Part shown: positions 28,245 through 34,818 of the stretch, in pieces
How positions within the stretch are numbered: the stretch's first letter is position 1
Layout of the letters: each line of letters opens with the position of its first letter
Assembly (NCBI GenBank): GCA_024684115.1
Contig: JAIKXP010000132.1
Location: forward strand, 1 to 35,073
Direction: 5' to 3'
DNA: 35,073 nucleotides
Source of the DNA: Sphaerochaetaceae bacterium
GTDB taxonomy: Bacteria > Spirochaetota > Spirochaetia > Sphaerochaetales > Sphaerochaetaceae
Made by a program: the position numbers and the translations under genes
Notes under the pieces: model-generated
Databases searched by the model: none
The model's input: the letters and a program-made list of their open reading frames with translations, nothing else
What the model was told of the DNA's origin: nothing

Positions 28245-28799
28245 ATGGCTTTTCTCATCGTTGTTGCAATAGTTGCTTTTCTTCTTATTTTTGTTACATC
28301 CAAATACAATGCATTTGTTAAGCTCAATAACCAGGCTGAAGAGGCATATGCTCAGATAGATGCCCACCTCAAGCAGCGCTACGACCTTGTACCGAACCTT
28401 GTTGAAACGGTAAAGGGATATGCAAAGCACGAGGAAAAGACCCTCACTGCCGTAATTGAAGCCAGAAACAAGGCCATGAACGCTACGACAGTTGAAGACA
28501 GGGATAAGGCAGACAATGCCTTTGCCGGCACACTGAAGACCCTCTTTGCCTTAAGTGAGGCCTATCCGGAGCTCAAGGCAAACACAAACTTTACAGAGCT
28601 TCAGAAAAAGCTCTCCGACCTTGAATCTGAAATTCTTCAGGCAAGAAAGTACTACAACGCAGTCGTAAAGACTTTCAACACAGCCATAGAGAGCTTCCCG
28701 GGCAACCTCATTGCCGGTATGTTCTGCGGAAAGTTCAAGAAGCTTGCCTATCTGCAGGTTGCTGAAGCAGAAAGACAGAACGTAAAGGTTCAGTTTTGA
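28245..28799 (+). CDS. lemA: LemA family protein
   Basis: The 184-residue protein has one N-terminal membrane helix (residues 2-17). A long alpha-helical domain follows, with the family signature YNAFVKLNNQAEEAYAQIDAHLKQRYDLVPNLVETVKGYAKHEEKTL (about 21-67) and a C-terminal NLIAGMF segment. LemA proteins are anchored in the inner membrane facing outward, and their role is not established. GGAGGTG at 28234-28240 precedes the ATG. The pairing with a DUF2207 protein directly downstream is common across bacteria. Confidence 0.93.
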   Translation: MAFLIVVAIVAFLLIFVTSKYNAFVKLNNQAEEAYAQIDAHLKQRYDLVPNLVETVKGYAKHEEKTLTAVIEARNKAMNATTVEDRDKADNAFAGTLKTLFALSEAYPELKANTNFTELQKKLSDLESEILQARKYYNAVVKTFNTAIESFPGNLIAGMFCGKFKKLAYLQVAEAERQNVKVQF

Positions 28800-30682
28800 T
28801 GAATAAAAGATCCTCTTTAAAAGGTCTTCTGATTCTCTTTCTTTTAATACTATCCCTTTCTCCGCTTTATGCGTCTTCCGGCGTATATGTGGTAAGGGAG
28901 CTTGATATGAACGTTGAGGTGGGCAGAAATGCCGTTCACCACGTTCAGGAAGACTACAGCATGTATTTCCTCCAGCCGTCACACGGCTTCTACAGGGATA
29001 TTCCGGTGGACTACTCCGACTCTGAAATACATGCCTATGTCAACAATCTCAAATGTTCAGACCCGTTTGTCAGTGCCTATGACGGCGGTTATCTGACCAT
29101 GAAGATCGGGCAGTCAGATGTAATTGTAAGAGGAAACAAGGACTACACCATAGTCTACGATTATGACCTCGGGGCCGATAATAATGAGGGCTATGATGAG
29201 TTCTACTTTAACCTAGTAGGACCGGGCTGGGATGCCCGCTTTGAAACCGTAAACTTCACCGTTACAGTTCCGTACACGGGTAGTGACCTTAAATACTACC
29301 TTACAAGCGGAAGATACGGAAATACGGTCTACAGCGGGACAGTCAGTGCCACGGTCTCGGGGGATAATACAATCATTCAGGGCAGCATAAATGACCTTGA
29401 TGCAGGAGATTCTCTTACTGTCAGGGTAGAACTGCCGGATAACTGGTACCAGGGAGCAAGAGTTGCCTGGGATCACAGGGATGTGTGGATTTACACAACT
29501 TACGGAATCTGCCTTGTTCTTGTAGTTCTCGCCGTTCTTGTATGGAGAAAGTACGGTAAGGACAGGACTCTTATCGTTACTGCCCGTTTCAAGGCTCCTG
29601 ATGGATTTACTCCTCTTGCTGCCGGCTATGTTGCCGACGGAAATGTGGATAACAAGGACATTACGTCCATGATCTATTACTGGGCCGACAGGGGGCTGCT
29701 CAGAATTGAAGAGCCCAGGAAGAACAGTTTTGAATTTGTACGCCTTAAGGATATAGGGGAGGATTCTCCTGAGTATGAGAAGCGTCTTTTCAGGGCATTC
29801 TTCAGAAGAATGGATGAAGAGGGAAGGGTTACCTTCAAGGACCTGAGGAATTCAGGTTTCTCTTCTGCCATGGCTTCGGCTGCATCAGATACAAAGAGTT
29901 ACTTCTCCAATGAGAGAAAGCTTACAGACACCCGGTCTTCTGTTTTTGAGGGAATCTTTACTTTTGTTTCCCTTATTCCCGGATTCCTGGGCATGATTTC
30001 ACTTACAAGAAGTGAGTTCGCTCCCGATTCTGCATTCTCACTTGTTGTGGGAGCTTTTCTTCTCCCGCTTGTTCTCGGATTTCTGTTCAGGGTTCTTTTC
30101 AGCAAGTGGTATTTAAGGAAGACAAATGTTCCTTTCATCATATTTATGGGAATAATTGTCGTTATTGATGTTTTTATCAGAACCTTCATCATGACGGCAG
30201 TTTATGAGAGGTGCCCCGTCTCCTATCCGGGAGTAATTGTATTGAGTACTGCAGCAATTTCCCTCTTTGCTGCAATAATGCCAAGAAAGAGTGAGTACGG
30301 CCATAAGGTTACCGAGGAGCTTCTGGGATTCAGGGAATTCATTGATAAGGTTGAAGTTGAAAAGCTCAAGACCATGATTGATTCAGACCCGAAGCTTTAC
30401 TACCGCGTTCTGTGTTATGCCATAGTCTTCGGTCTTGAAAACAAGTGGGCTTCCAAGTTCAGCGGTCTTCAGATGCAGGAGCCCGGATGGTACTCAGGCA
30501 TAAGCCCGTTTGATGTAATGATGTTTGCCCACCTTAATGCAAGACTCAGAAACTCAATGATGAACAGCATAGCTCCTTCTTCCGGTCCGTCAGGCGGCAT
30601 GCCGAGGGTAGGCGGAGGCGGTTTCCACAGTTCAGGTTTCTCGGGAGGCGGTTTCGGAGGAGGAGGCGGTCGTGCATGGTGA
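28799..30682 (+). CDS. DUF2207 domain-containing membrane protein
   Basis: The 627-residue product begins at ATG 28799, overlapping the lemA stop by one base (TGATG). It has a signal peptide (about 1-26), then an exported DUF2207 beta-rich domain (about 30-215). A membrane helix follows (about 228-248), then a cytoplasmic stretch and a second cluster of hydrophobic segments (about 388-495). The C-terminus is Gly/Ser-rich (about 600-627, SSGFSGGGFGGGGGRAW), as is typical of the family. The partnership with LemA suggests an envelope complex, but no biochemical function is known. The codons of the Gly-rich tail also form the next gene's ribosome-binding site. Confidence 0.88.
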   Translation: MNKRSSLKGLLILFLLILSLSPLYASSGVYVVRELDMNVEVGRNAVHHVQEDYSMYFLQPSHGFYRDIPVDYSDSEIHAYVNNLKCSDPFVSAYDGGYLTMKIGQSDVIVRGNKDYTIVYDYDLGADNNEGYDEFYFNLVGPGWDARFETVNFTVTVPYTGSDLKYYLTSGRYGNTVYSGTVSATVSGDNTIIQGSINDLDAGDSLTVRVELPDNWYQGARVAWDHRDVWIYTTYGICLVLVVLAVLVWRKYGKDRTLIVTARFKAPDGFTPLAAGYVADGNVDNKDITSMIYYWADRGLLRIEEPRKNSFEFVRLKDIGEDSPEYEKRLFRAFFRRMDEEGRVTFKDLRNSGFSSAMASAASDTKSYFSNERKLTDTRSSVFEGIFTFVSLIPGFLGMISLTRSEFAPDSAFSLVVGAFLLPLVLGFLFRVLFSKWYLRKTNVPFIIFMGIIVVIDVFIRTFIMTAVYERCPVSYPGVIVLSTAAISLFAAIMPRKSEYGHKVTEELLGFREFIDKVEVEKLKTMIDSDPKLYYRVLCYAIVFGLENKWASKFSGLQMQEPGWYSGISPFDVMMFAHLNARLRNSMMNSIAPSSGPSGGMPRVGGGGFHSSGFSGGGFGGGGGRAW

Positions 30683-31319
30683 TCTGAAGGGTCTTCTCTA
30701 TACTCTTCTCCTAATCGGTTCATGCGGCCTTGTTTCCCTCTTCATTGAGAAGAAAAACCTCTTCGGGAATATGAGCAGTGAAATCTCCAGAAAGGTTGTA
30801 CACATAGGGGTCAGTAACTGGTTCTTTATCTGGAGGGATATTTTTGTCTCTCCTTATATTCCTGTAGCAGGTCTTCTTGCCTTTGCAGTAATCAACACAT
30901 TTGTAACCATAAGAAACGGAAATAAAAGGTGGGGTCTTACCTACTATCCCATTGCCATCATGCTTATAATCTGTGCCCGTTCTTTCCTCGGTTTCGGAAC
31001 GGATTCTTCAGTTGGAACGGCCATACTCGGTATGGGATACGGAGATGGACTTGCTGCCATCTGCGGCATACTCTTTTCAAGACACCGTGTGGGCTTCCTC
31101 GGGGAAAAACTGCCTGGAACAGAAAAGAAGACGGCAGGCGGAAGTCTTGTTTTCATCATCTGCGTCTTTACAATCTCGAAACTCTTCGGAGCATCTGCAG
31201 CGCTTTCAATTCTTCTTGCCCTGTGCGGAGCCTTTGTTGAAGCCTATACACCTTACGGGCTTGATAATTTCACCGTTCCCGGTGTACTTTTTCTCGTAAG
31301 TTCACTGGCAGGTGTTTAA
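30672..31319 (+). CDS. Polyprenol/phytol kinase-like membrane protein (VTE5/SEC59/CDS superfamily)
   Basis: The 215-residue hydrophobic protein has about six or seven membrane spans. It shows SRKVVHIGVSNWFF (about 39-52) and LGMGYGDGLAAICG (about 118-131), then EKKTAGGSLVF (about 153-163). These fit the CTP-dependent lipid-alcohol kinases (phytol, farnesol or dolichol kinase) related to phosphatidate cytidylyltransferase. The start is a GTG, with GGAGGAGGAGG at 30656-30666 inside the preceding coding region, giving an 11-base overlap. Its neighbour is a VTE6-like protein, so the two may act in sequence on a prenyl alcohol. Confidence 0.75.
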   Translation: MHGDLKGLLYTLLLIGSCGLVSLFIEKKNLFGNMSSEISRKVVHIGVSNWFFIWRDIFVSPYIPVAGLLAFAVINTFVTIRNGNKRWGLTYYPIAIMLIICARSFLGFGTDSSVGTAILGMGYGDGLAAICGILFSRHRVGFLGEKLPGTEKKTAGGSLVFIICVFTISKLFGASAALSILLALCGAFVEAYTPYGLDNFTVPGVLFLVSSLAGV

Positions 31320-32161
31320 TGGAACTGATAAACATACTTAACTCCTATATTTTCTCTATCCCAGTTCATTTCCTTCTCCCGGCTATGGTTCTCTTCATGG
31401 GTGCGGTTGGATTTGCTGCCTGGAAAAAGAAGACTCTTACGGCAGACGGTGCGCTGGCTGCTGTTGTATGCGGAGTTGTCGTTCTTTACTGCCTCAGGCT
31501 GGAAGGATTTATCCTGTTTCTGTTTTTCTTCCTCTCCTGCAACCTGATCGGGAAAATATCCGGGAAAAAAACCGGACCGGAAGGTGGTTTTGAAAAGAAG
31601 GGAAGCTGCCGCGACTGGGTTCAGGTTGCTGCCAACGGACTTATGGCAGTTGTTTCAGCACTGTGGTGGCTTTCTTCAAGGGATTTCTCCGCCGTAATCA
31701 TGTTCGGTGCTGCAATTGCGGAGAGTACAAGTGATACGTTTGCCGGAGAGATTGGCAGGATGAGCCGGATAAACCCCATTTCCATCAGAAACATGAAGCC
31801 CGTAGAGAAGGGTATGAGCGGAGGAGTAACCCCGCTCGGGTTCGCTGGCGGAGTGCTGGGAGCCCTTGCCATTGCCGTTCTCTGGTTCTTCCTCTTCCCG
31901 GTTGTAAAGGGTGTTTCATATGCACTGATAATCTGTGTAAGTGCTGTTTTCGGCTGTGTGGCGGACAGTTTTCTAGGAGCAACAGCCCAGGCTCTTTACT
32001 TTGACAGAGAAAGCGGGAAGTTCACTGAGAGGGATACTGACAGAAACGGGCAGCCCCTGGAACTGTGCCGCGGGGTGAAGTGGCTTGATAATGACATGGT
32101 AAACCTTTCCTGTAATATACTTGCTGCAGTTCTCTCCGTAACACTTACAAAGATCGTCTGA
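31319..32161 (+). CDS. DUF92 / VTE6-like (phytyl-phosphate kinase family) membrane protein
   Basis: The 280-residue protein has several membrane spans. It matches the DUF92/TMEM19 family pattern: KKTLTADGALAAVVCGVVV (about 37-55), RDWVQVAANGLMAV (about 97-110), IAESTSDTFAGEIGRMS (about 133-149), VEKGMSGGVTPLGFAGGVLGA (about 161-181) and CVADSFLGATAQALY (about 213-227). The plant and cyanobacterial member VTE6 phosphorylates phytyl phosphate to the diphosphate. The start overlaps the previous stop by one base (TAATG). The substrate in this organism is unknown. Undecaprenol, farnesol or geranylgeraniol phosphates are possible. Confidence 0.8.
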   Translation: MELINILNSYIFSIPVHFLLPAMVLFMGAVGFAAWKKKTLTADGALAAVVCGVVVLYCLRLEGFILFLFFFLSCNLIGKISGKKTGPEGGFEKKGSCRDWVQVAANGLMAVVSALWWLSSRDFSAVIMFGAAIAESTSDTFAGEIGRMSRINPISIRNMKPVEKGMSGGVTPLGFAGGVLGALAIAVLWFFLFPVVKGVSYALIICVSAVFGCVADSFLGATAQALYFDRESGKFTERDTDRNGQPLELCRGVKWLDNDMVNLSCNILAAVLSVTLTKIV

Positions 32162-32251: not shown

Positions 32252-33313
32252 ATGTCTAAAGAAAAAAGAAATCTCATTATTGCGGGAGTATTAATCGGAG
32301 CCATTTCTGTAGCTCTTGTCGCTTTTGGAAACCCTAAGAACATGGGATTCTGCATTGCCTGTTTTATCAGGGATATGGCAGGTGCTGCAAAGATGCACAG
32401 TGCAGGTGTTGTTCAGTATGTCAGACCTGAAATAATCGGCCTTGTTCTCGGAGCTTTCATAATCAGCAAGGCCACCGGAGAGTTCAAGAGCCGCGGCGGT
32501 TCAAGCCCCATGCTCAGATTCTTAATCGGTGCATTTGTAATGATCGGAGCACTCATATTCCTCGGCTGTCCGTTCAGGATGATTCTCCGTCTTGCCGGAG
32601 GAGACCTTAATGCACTTGTTGCCCTTGCAGGATTTATCTGCGGTATTGCAGTAGCATGTTTCTTCCTTGCCCGCGGATTCTCACTTGGAAAGTACTACTT
32701 CCAGAACAATATTGAAGGAACTTCCCTCAGTGCTGTAAACGCACTGCTTCTTGTTCTTCTCATCTTTGTTCCTTCAGTATTTGCATTTTCCGAGAAGGGA
32801 CCGGGTTCCATGCATGCTGCCATTATTATTTCTCTTGCCGCAGGCCTTATAGTCGGCGTTCTTGCTCAGAGAACAAGACTCTGCATGGTTGGTGGAATCA
32901 GAGACATAATTCTGGTCAGGGATTACACACTGATTGTCGGATTTGTTGCAATTTTTGTTGCAGCTCTTGCCGGAAACCTCATAACCGGCAACTTTAAGCT
33001 CGGTTTTGAAGGCCAGCCTGTTGCACACACAGCCCATGTCTGGAACTTCCTCGGCATGTTTGTTGTAGGACTTGGCTCAGCCATGCTCGGCGGCTGCCCG
33101 TTAAGACAGCTCATTCTTGCAGGTGAAGGAAACTCAGACAGTGCACTTTCTGTTGCAGGTATGTTCGTTGGTGCTGCAGTTGCCCATAACTTCAAGCTTG
33201 TCGGTAATGCAACAGAGAATGGACCTAACACATACGGAAAGGTTGCCCTGGTTTTAATCATTGTAATTCTTCTCTGCATTGCATCTGTAAGAACGTTTGC
33301 AAAGAAAAAGTGA
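32252..33313 (+). CDS. yedE: YedE-type putative selenium transporter
   Basis: The 353-residue membrane protein consists of two YeeE/YedE-type repeats, with about nine or ten helices. Conserved Cys-containing motifs are GFCIACFIRD (32-41), GCPFRM (105-110), RTRLCMVGGIRD (about 208-219) and GGCPLRQ (about 285-291). YeeE/YedE proteins import thiosulfate or other sulfur species; the subgroup next to selD is proposed, from gene neighbourhood, to handle selenium. Position upstream of tusA-, DUF3343- and selD-like genes supports the selenium assignment. Seven bases separate it from the next gene. Confidence 0.88.
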   Translation: MSKEKRNLIIAGVLIGAISVALVAFGNPKNMGFCIACFIRDMAGAAKMHSAGVVQYVRPEIIGLVLGAFIISKATGEFKSRGGSSPMLRFLIGAFVMIGALIFLGCPFRMILRLAGGDLNALVALAGFICGIAVACFFLARGFSLGKYYFQNNIEGTSLSAVNALLLVLLIFVPSVFAFSEKGPGSMHAAIIISLAAGLIVGVLAQRTRLCMVGGIRDIILVRDYTLIVGFVAIFVAALAGNLITGNFKLGFEGQPVAHTAHVWNFLGMFVVGLGSAMLGGCPLRQLILAGEGNSDSALSVAGMFVGAAVAHNFKLVGNATENGPNTYGKVALVLIIVILLCIASVRTFAKKK

Positions 33314-33320
33314 GGTAGAT

Positions 33321-33527
33321 ATGAAAGAAATTGACTGTTTCGGCTTAAGCTGTCCTATTCCTGTAGTCAACACTAAAAAAGCCCTTAAAGATAATCCGAA
33401 GGAACTTGCAGTTCTCGTTGATAACGTTGCTGCAAAGGAAAACGTTTCACGTTTCGGTAAGGCTATGGGTTATAATGTTGAAGTACTGGAGATAGACGGC
33501 GGATGGAAAATTCAGCTGAAAAAATAA
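33321..33527 (+). CDS. TusA/YedF N-terminal-like sulfur/selenium carrier protein
   Basis: The 68-residue protein has the TusA-family motif CFGLSCPIPVVNTKKAL (6-22), with the active cysteine Cys11 in CPxP. TusA relays persulfide sulfur; the version in selD neighbourhoods is thought to pass selenium or sulfur. The ATG at 33321 with GAGG upstream is preferred to the longer frame starting inside yedE. In many bacteria this domain is fused to a DsrE-like domain as YedF, whereas here it stands alone. Confidence 0.85.
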   Translation: MKEIDCFGLSCPIPVVNTKKALKDNPKELAVLVDNVAAKENVSRFGKAMGYNVEVLEIDGGWKIQLKK

Positions 33528-33754
33528 TAGTAGCAACATTTTATAACCACTATGGAGCCATGATGCTCAAAAAGGCCCTGGGAAAAAACGCAGTTCTGCG
33601 CCCCGTACCCAGGGCTCTTTCTTCTTCCTGCGGAACATGTGTGTTTATCACTGACGCAGACGAAAATGCCGTAAGAGATGCCTCTGATGAAAATATTGAG
33701 GCTATCTACAGAAAAAACGGCGACAGTTATACAGAAATCTGGAAGGCCCTCTAA
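33503..33754 (+). CDS. DUF3343 protein, putative Se/S carrier-like
   Basis: The 83-residue product overlaps the tusA-like gene by 25 bases in another frame and ends one base into the selD start codon. It matches DUF3343, with IIVATFYNHYGAMMLKKAL (8-26), VPRALSSSCGTCVFIT (35-50) and a C-terminal YRKNGDSYTEIW. Cys43 and Cys46 form a CxxC-like pair that could carry a chalcogen. The family is known mainly from gene neighbourhoods with selD and tusA-like genes, and its function is unproven. Confidence 0.82.
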   Translation: MENSAEKIIVATFYNHYGAMMLKKALGKNAVLRPVPRALSSSCGTCVFITDADENAVRDASDENIEAIYRKNGDSYTEIWKAL

Positions 33755-34818
33755 TGTCCACAGCTCAATATGATTCAAACGGAAAAATAAAACTCACCTC
33801 AATGGTTAAGACAAGCGGATGCGCTGCAAAGCTTCCGCCTGCAAAGCTGCACTCGGTAATAGACAACCTGCCGCTGATGAGCAGTGAAAACCTTATTGAG
33901 GGTTTTGAAAGCGCTGATGATGCGCTTGTATACCGTGTGACGGATGATATTGTCAGCGTTCAGACCGTAGACTTCTTTCCTCCAATGGTAGATGATCCCT
34001 ATACCTTCGGTCAGGTTGCCGCAGCTAACGCCCTTTCAGATGTATATGCAATGGGAGGAACTCCCTCTGTTGCCATGAACCTCATGTGTTTTCCTTCCTG
34101 CCTTGACCTGGACGTAATGAAGGAAATCCTTACAGGCGGAATAGACAAGGTCAGGGAGGCCGGGGCGGTCATTGCCGGAGGCCATACCATAGAAGATCCC
34201 ACCCCGAAGTACGGTCTCTGTGTAACAGGGTTCATGAAGGTAACTGACGTCTGGAGTAACAAGGGAGCGCGTGAGGGAGATGCCATAGTTCTTACCAAGG
34301 CTCTGGGCTGCGGAATAATAAATACCGCCGTGAAGGCAGAGATGGCTGAAGAGGAGAGCTGCAGAGCCTGTGTGGATTCCATGACAAGACTTAACAGAAA
34401 GGCCAGGGACCTTGCCGTAAACTACACAATCCATGCTGCAACAGATGTAACCGGCTTCTCCCTTGCCGGTCACGGAAGTGAGGTAGCTCAGGCCTCAGGT
34501 CTTACGGTTGAAATTGAAACTGACAGACTCCCGGTTCTTCCCGGAGCTCTCCAATATGCAAGATACGGTCTTCTTCCTGCGGGCCGCTACACAAATGAAG
34601 ACTTTCTCTTCGGAAAGGTAAGCTTTGATGAGAAGATTTCCCAGGAAATGAAGGATCTTGTTTTTGATCCTCAGACAAGTGGAGGACTCCTTCTGTTCAT
34701 GCCTGAGAAAGAGGCAGAAGAATATGTTGAAAAATACATGGAGCAGACAGGCCTCGACTGTTGTAAAATAATAGGCAGATGCAAGGAGAAAGGAGACTTT
34801 CTCATAAAGTTTGTCTGA
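33754..34818 (+). CDS. selD: Selenide, water dikinase (selenophosphate synthetase)
   Basis: SelD makes selenophosphate from selenide and ATP, the selenium donor for selenocysteine, selenouridine tRNA and labile-selenium molybdenum enzymes. The 354-residue protein has the N-terminal catalytic motif SGCAAKLPP, with Cys23 and Lys26 equivalent to E. coli Cys17 and Lys20. The usual second Cys (GCGCK) is replaced by Ala. Further motifs are VQTVDFFPPMVDDPYTFGQVAAANALSDVYAMGG (about 69-102), AGGHTIEDPTPKYGL (about 141-155) and DPQTSGGLL (about 307-315). The active-site residue is an ordinary Cys codon, not UGA. Its start overlaps the DUF3343 stop by one base. Confidence 0.95.
   Translation: MSTAQYDSNGKIKLTSMVKTSGCAAKLPPAKLHSVIDNLPLMSSENLIEGFESADDALVYRVTDDIVSVQTVDFFPPMVDDPYTFGQVAAANALSDVYAMGGTPSVAMNLMCFPSCLDLDVMKEILTGGIDKVREAGAVIAGGHTIEDPTPKYGLCVTGFMKVTDVWSNKGAREGDAIVLTKALGCGIINTAVKAEMAEEESCRACVDSMTRLNRKARDLAVNYTIHAATDVTGFSLAGHGSEVAQASGLTVEIETDRLPVLPGALQYARYGLLPAGRYTNEDFLFGKVSFDEKISQEMKDLVFDPQTSGGLLLFMPEKEAEEYVEKYMEQTGLDCCKIIGRCKEKGDFLIKFV

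Follow-up and report, generated by a model that had tools for sequence, protein, structure and literature searches.

We propose that two overlapping genes of a Sphaerochaetaceae bacterium, K1 and K2, turn scavenged prenol (farnesol, geranylgeraniol or phytol) into an allylic diphosphate that primes the polyprenyl synthase UppS, a reading to which we assign a probability of roughly 0.5. The genes lie in a window of 35,073 nucleotides, by which we mean the whole stretch of DNA analysed (contig JAIKXP010000132.1, C126 in our numbering). The source genome (GCA_024684115.1) comprises 1.58 Mb in 142 contigs and is 92.9% complete. Labels beginning with G denote sampled genomes and those beginning with L denote fetched or named loci. 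That both products are kinases, as their families, motifs and folds indicate, we consider highly probable.

K1, 30672..31319, + strand: GTG start, 215 amino acids; predicted cytidine triphosphate (CTP)-dependent prenol kinase, VTE5/dolichol-kinase-like, with eight long helices in the model.
K2, 31319..32161, + strand: ATG start, 280 amino acids; DUF92/COG1836, predicted prenyl-phosphate kinase, VTE6-like.

The two genes share a single base (TAATG). They are real genes rather than chance open reading frames (ORFs), since relatives are 26-54% (K1) and 28-59% (K2, alignment of 30 relatives) identical to the window proteins and both models are confident (predicted local distance difference test, pLDDT, 94.9 and 93.5, respectively). 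A first-pass annotation had described two overlapping genes with four characteristic motifs. Both ORFs were confirmed and every motif region was located: MGYGDG at residue 121 and KKTAGG at residue 152 of K1, and SDTFAGEIG at residue 138 and DSFLGATAQ at residue 216 of K2.

Hypothetically, the route has three steps. K1 would phosphorylate a free long-chain prenol with CTP, and K2 would convert the resulting prenyl monophosphate to an allylic diphosphate. This product would then replace synthase-made farnesyl diphosphate (FPP) as the primer to which UppS adds isopentenyl diphosphate to build the polyprenyl carrier lipid. The prenol would be external, whether farnesol, geranylgeraniol or, in the gut, phytol, and we assume that it enters by diffusion. 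A two-step route from prenol to prenyl diphosphate had also been put forward in the first-pass annotation, with dietary phytol, farnesol or polyprenol as possible substrates. The route itself stands as the best reading of the K1 motifs and the K2 family, but the suggestion of phytol is not supported: nothing singles it out, and the carotenoid synthase SQS_PSY was not found in the source genome.

The argument for an external primer lies in what the source genome appears to lack. A search with the trans-prenyl synthase profile PF00348 found no match in it or in any of the four genomes of its genus, absence being called here with one profile per family (PF00348, and PF01255 for UppS). Genes of the methylerythritol phosphate (MEP) pathway, ispG and dxr, are nevertheless present, and its UppS aligns at full length with a solved UppS. 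With the MEP genes and UppS kept and no trans-prenyl synthase detected, the primer prenol would therefore have to come from outside, and the missing PF00348 gives the pair a likely role. A mevalonate pathway was considered and set aside, as no HMG-CoA reductase was found.

This pattern extends across most of the family. We compared 37 Sphaerochaetaceae genomes, 24 genomes from other families of the class and 14 controls, many of them drafts. PF00348 matched in 11 of the 37 family genomes, in 22 of the 24 from other families (absent from G037 and G038) and in all 14 controls. Restricting the family to genomes at least 90% complete leaves 8 of 28 with a match. The single-contig genome G024 has none. 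Mapping presence of PF00348 onto a joined K1+K2 tree takes three changes, and none of the 13 genomes in the clade of the window has it; the chance of missing it in all 13 through incompleteness is about 3e-15, assuming independent gaps. UppS was found in 33 of the 37 family genomes, with a single PF01255 match in every UppS-bearing genome. In 23 family genomes UppS was found but PF00348 was not; all of these except G029 carry the pair, 22 in total. Holding a salvage pair may have allowed the later loss of the synthase. In a broader and more tentative form of the proposal, most of the family would have dropped the usual synthesis of prenyl diphosphates longer than C5, with environmental prenols priming the carrier lipid through K1-K2 and, in the rumen, even phytol giving carrier lipids with saturated tails. 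The slow growth of Bullifex porci and its improvement with rumen fluid (PMC7738495) fit prenol scavenging and prove nothing, B. porci being one of the organisms without PF00348. Nine of the 27 genomes behind named loci, whose completeness is not given, have no PF00348 match: B. porci (L072), Aphodenecus (L073), two Sphaerochaetaceae metagenome-assembled genomes (MAGs; L032 and L035), Acholeplasmatales (L109), Mycoplasmatota zrk7 (L105, titled a complete genome), Izemoplasmatales (L104), Tenericutes (L093) and Christensenellaceae (L068). At L075, PF00348 appears only as a fragment below the cut-off.

The pair itself is core in the family. K2 occurs in 34 of the 37 family genomes and in 1 of the 24 from other families, and K1 at E < 1e-30 occurs in the same 35 genomes. 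The two genes are neighbors in 34 of these 35 (29 of 30 fetched loci, and five more genomes by coordinates), with a widest gap of 347 bases among the fetched loci (L030); in G030 they lie on different contigs. Adjacency had been singled out earlier as worth surveying across bacteria, and it holds in most of the named loci. In a named-locus set made of the best 80 of 227 relatives retrieved with K1 as the query, 77 loci have K2, which lies within 350 bases of K1 or is fused to it in 76. Four of these are single-ORF fusions (L077 Saccharibacteria, L085 Anaeromonas, L095 Athalassotoga and L103 Mesoaciditoga). The exceptions are L108, where K2 lies 2.4 kb off, and L042 (a contig end), L097 and L104, which are without K2. 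The nearest named relatives are Sphaerochaetaceae and Spirochaetales MAGs, several of them rumen or faecal, which bears out the spirochaete affiliation assumed in the first-pass annotation. Ten loci of K2-bearing spirochaetes outside the family were examined, one of them from G052; in nine, K1 adjoins K2 or is fused to it, the exception being L125. Adjacency and fusion thus recur. A search of phages and plasmids with tblastn found no K1, and a single K2 match on a plasmid, from Thermomicrobium roseum (31%).

Several observations on copy number and gene integrity stand apart from this survey. Sphaerochaeta halotolerans has a second K1 (L097:9905-10612) in a 20-kb locus where no K2, carotenoid, DUF2207 or LemA gene was found. 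A distant K1 paralogue (E 3e-6 to 1e-22) occurs in most of the 24 other-family genomes (G037-G060), and the matches listed for the 37 family genomes include no second, weak one of this sort. At G035:C15:22213-23089, K2 was matched in two pieces, possibly reflecting a frameshift or an assembly error.

The window K1 holds the RKxxH clamp, GDG, K-T..G and E..TP.GLDN, which together form the motif set of VTE5/dolichol kinases (COG0170). GDG and GLDN we take to be marks of that group, or at the least residues conserved among the proteins compared here. Across 29 aligned sequences the invariant residues are R40, K41, H44, G88, M121, D125, G132, K153, G157, E190, P194, D198, N199 and P203. The motif patterns are nearly universal among the 80 named relatives: RKxxH in 80, K[TS]..G in 79, E..TP.G.DN in 76 and MGYGDG-like in 75. 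The RKxxH clamp has been described for a Plasmodium prenol kinase (PMC10849223), and the KKT of K1 corresponds to K470/K471/T472, whose mutation impairs human dolichol kinase (PMC4281381).

Libraries of known families hardly recognize K1. A Pfam and NCBIfam scan gave no significant match, a search of solved structures with the K1 profile gave none, and the cytidylyltransferase profile CTP_transf_1 (PF01148) did not match the window protein at E up to 1; it touches 2 of 29 aligned relatives, at best with E 0.002. The closest solved structure is CdsA (4q2g_B, Z 8.3, root-mean-square deviation (rmsd) 4.4, 157 residues aligned), although helical membrane proteins reach middling Z scores by chance. 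Foldseek matches were weak, the sensible one being CdsA for both K1 (E 0.48) and K2 (E 0.09). The modeled likeness to a CTP-using enzyme is at most suggestive. K1 is nonetheless probably not a CDP-diacylglycerol (CDP-DAG) synthase, judging from sequence, because the genome has a separate CdsA gene, adjoining uppS and dxr, and because the CdsA signature GG..D..D is absent from all 80 K1 relatives; a CdsA-type pattern is present in the genome's own CdsA, which is the gene that PF01148 finds.

K2 is assigned more directly. The DUF92 membership that had been read from its motifs is borne out by a strong match to PF01940 (E 1.4e-61, 208.5 bits against a curated cut-off of 27.5), whereas K1 has no significant match in Pfam, the CDS family included. 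By strict pattern the K2 motifs are not universal among the 77 named relatives: the SDT-type motif occurs in 53, DS..GA..Q in 38 and DND..N in 49. Among the 14 control genomes, PF01940 was found in Synechococcus elongatus and three archaea. The model most resembles a TRIC channel (5wuc, Z 7.2, rmsd 3.7, 119 aligned), followed by CarS (5guf, Z 6.6, rmsd 3.9, 123 aligned) and CdsA (4q2e_B, Z 5.4, rmsd 3.7, 129 aligned). Because the channel outscores the two enzymes, we assign K2 no fold kin. Searching solved structures with the K2 profile gave nothing useful, the best match (E 0.12) being to a potassium channel. PF01940/COG1836 is the VTE6 family (PMC9782597, PMC5898192).

Elsewhere, the pair keeps company with carotenoid genes. 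In 10 of the 80 named loci (L084, L091, L093, L095, L101, L102, L103, L106, L108 and L109), crtI and crtM are both found no more than 6 kb from K1, and in five of these the frames of crtM and K1 touch. Neighbor clusters supplied the sequences for the crtI, crtM, DUF2207 and LemA profiles, which recover those clusters by construction. Library profiles checked identities in three loci, the other crt identities resting on clusters and derived profiles: phytoene desaturase TIGR02734 exceeded its cut-off in L101, L095 and L108, SQS_PSY (PF00494) was found in L101 and L095, and Caroten_synth (PF04240) and CrtO (PF18927) in L095. In G052, from another family, crtI-crtM-cruF converges with K2-K1. Within a phylum sample of 392 genomes, 356 of them outside the family, SQS_PSY occurs in 11 of 13 outside genomes with K2 (one, G381, as a sub-cut-off fragment) versus 57 of 343 without it (Fisher p 3e-7, ignoring kinship). 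CrtI and CrtM use C15/C20 diphosphates, and this context ties the pair to prenyl diphosphates of that length. Squalene/phytoene synthase is the probable recipient of the pair's product in the carotenoid operons of Clostridia, Tenericutes, Athalassotoga, Mesoaciditoga and other spirochaetes. In L093 (Tenericutes) and L109 (Acholeplasmatales), the order is crtI-crtM-K1-K2 and the genomes have no PF00348 match; with no synthase detected there, the pair could feed CrtM directly. A carotenoid role in the source genome was set aside, SQS_PSY being absent from it and from its genus (0/4) and present in 5 of 37 family genomes. Two further gene types occur near the carotenoid and K1-K2 genes: tocopherol-cyclase-type genes at L093, L095, L103, L108 and L109 (PF14249 was tested in L095 and L109, the others resting on cluster or profile), and a DNA-photolyase-like gene (cluster 60, named by eye) at L091, L093 and L108.

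In the window, K1 and K2 form the tail of a block in the order LemA-DUF2207-K1-K2, with other genes following.

LemA family gene, 28245..28799, + strand: PF04011, E 4.1e-56; heads the block and overlaps the DUF2207 gene.
DUF2207 membrane protein gene, 28796..30682, + strand: PF20990/PF09972 matches.
Selenium cluster 3' of K2, window 32252-34818: YedE-type selenium transporter TIGR04112, Se_S_carrier PF11823 and selD.
Partial LysR-type helix-turn-helix gene, at 34811: after the selenium cluster.

The start of K1 overlaps the end of the DUF2207 gene by 11 bases, and the two likely share a transcript. By profile count, 52 of the 80 named loci have LemA no more than 6 kb from K1, and 52 have DUF2207 at such a distance. 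An Rfam scan of the window matched no family.

A number of observations weigh against UppS priming by salvaged prenol, and several of them favor a different account, in which UppS or an unrecognized enzyme makes the allylic primer from dimethylallyl diphosphate (DMAPP) and K1-K2 serve only to recycle prenols or to capture them when available. We consider this account rather unlikely, although it is the best of the alternatives. G029 (96% complete, 210 contigs) has UppS and neither the pair nor PF00348. The pair is also present in all 11 family genomes that keep PF00348, and is therefore not tied to loss of the synthase. Staphylococcus aureus remains viable without both of its known trans-prenyl synthases, its source of FPP being unknown (PMC12345219). 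However, the same source reports that DMAPP is not a substrate of the UppS enzymes studied in other species, each UppS-bearing genome has one PF01255 match, and the source genome's own UppS aligns at full length with its solved counterpart. A self-priming change at the UppS motif Y.FSTEN was sought in 31 loci (30 matched; the 10 from the family comprise 7 without and 3 with PF00348), and none stood out. By the same token, the comparison revealed nothing special to genomes lacking PF00348, which offers no help to salvage.

The remaining difficulties for prenol salvage are of three kinds. First, a diverged or unrelated synthase could escape a single profile. Second, the distributions are imperfect. 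No UppS was found in G030 (72% complete) or G008 (86%), both of which hold the pair. G037 and G038, which belong to other families and are incomplete, have UppS with neither PF00348 nor K2. UppS, PF00348 and the pair all went undetected in G016 and G032, a co-loss that speaks for the proposal but weakly, because both genomes are small (two 1.2-Mb genomes of one genus, with ispG kept). PF00348 is present in 8 of the 10 carotenoid-linked genomes, and the pair is therefore not the sole source of diphosphate there. In the joined tree (34 genomes and 6 outgroup rows), the family row G021 sits among the outgroup, which suggests that the pair also moves between lineages. Third, K1 is set beside VTE5 by motif and description rather than by comparison with a VTE5 sequence, and comparison of the K1 and K2 profiles (hhalign) detected no mutual homology (probability 2%).

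It is improbable, in our view, that the pair instead acts on long polyprenols, K1 phosphorylating undecaprenol or another polyprenol and K2 making the diphosphate as part of carrier-lipid recycling. The association with crtI and crtM, whose enzymes work on C15/C20 diphosphates, does not suit such a role; a second kinase making the diphosphate would presumably undo the form that the cell needs, and G030 and G008 hold the pair without a detected UppS. What recommends it is the motif likeness of K1 to dolichol kinase, together with the conserved uppS context of archaeal COG1836 genes (PMC5898192). A literal VTE5/VTE6 pathway, with plant-like salvage of phytol for tocopherol or phylloquinone, is very improbable. 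The family names and the tocopherol-cyclase-type genes (within 6 kb in L093, L095, L103 and L109, and in the L108 locus) would suit it, but the tested window genes include no tocopherol-type neighbor (the rest of the genome was not searched for tocopherol or quinone genes), and in this group the genes conserved around the pair are LemA and DUF2207. Finally, we give almost no credence to K1 as a CDP-DAG synthase-type cytidylyltransferase beside an unrelated DUF92 protein: the CdsA fold match, the 2 of 29 relatives touched by PF01148 and a weak touch of the K1 profile on the genome's CdsA (16.7 bits, bias 7.1, two-sequence set) are set against the missing CdsA signature and a PF01148 search that recovers CdsA and not K1.

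If prenol salvage does prime UppS, these gut spirochaetes would rely on prenols of dietary or microbial origin to extend their envelope, a need that could be relevant to how poorly they grow when rumen fluid is left out. Where UppS obtains FPP without the known trans-prenyl synthases has been left open for S. aureus (PMC12345219), and a family seemingly without the synthase yet with a complete candidate salvage pair makes that question directly testable. For animals and pathogens, the enzymes of two-step prenol salvage are said not to have been identified (PMC9782597); if the proposal is right, the bacterial pair and its fused forms would be workable models. Three findings go beyond the first-pass annotation: the pair is core in the family, carotenoid genes accompany it elsewhere, and the source genome has no PF00348 match.

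In the literature searched, and within the parts of it available, we found no account of a spirochaete with this pair, nor of prenol salvage as a means of priming where the synthase is missing. Nearest to such an account are a sentence on Soehngenia, the archaeal fusion and the COG1836 prediction, all taken up below; the available text of a preprint on spirochaete evolution (PMC12236494) does not contain 'isoprenoid', 'terpenoid' or 'farnesyl'. The kind of kinase and the fused archaeal form are already published. A locus in our set, L102, belongs to Soehngenia longivitae 1933P, for which crtI, crtB and a 'phytol kinase VTE5' are given as lycopene biosynthesis genes, in a passage that leaves K2 unmentioned and proposes no salvage role (PMC7763609). 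Rickettsia parkeri is likewise without FPP synthase and keeps downstream carrier synthesis, and scavenging has been proposed for it (PMC6854040). In Rickettsia, however, the upstream MEP genes are also lost and diphosphates are thought to be imported, whereas here MEP markers stay and free prenols are the proposed source. Plasmodium falciparum PolK shares the RKxxH clamp and a proposed salvage of farnesol and geranylgeraniol (PMC10849223), but that account concerns the first kinase, and the parasite's own MEP pathway supplies FPP and geranylgeranyl diphosphate.

The VTE5/VTE6 pathway of plants and cyanobacteria (PMC9782597 and PMC3223725, the latter also giving the COG1836 prediction) resembles the window pair in having two kinases in series, with K2 in the VTE6 family and CTP-kinase motifs in K1. 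This likeness is one of description, not sequence, and the window pair differs in its overlapping genes, its LemA-DUF2207 block and its proposed use in priming UppS. Also close is the archaeal fusion of COG0170-like and COG1836 domains exemplified by Methanosarcina Mbar_A3310, published in 2015 as a predicted kinase step in isoprenoid synthesis (PMC5898192). It has the same two domains in the same order, but its context is uppS rather than LemA-DUF2207, and the four archaeal control genomes have PF00348, unlike the source genome. The window genes are separate where the archaeal ones are fused, and fused forms are found here in bacteria as well.

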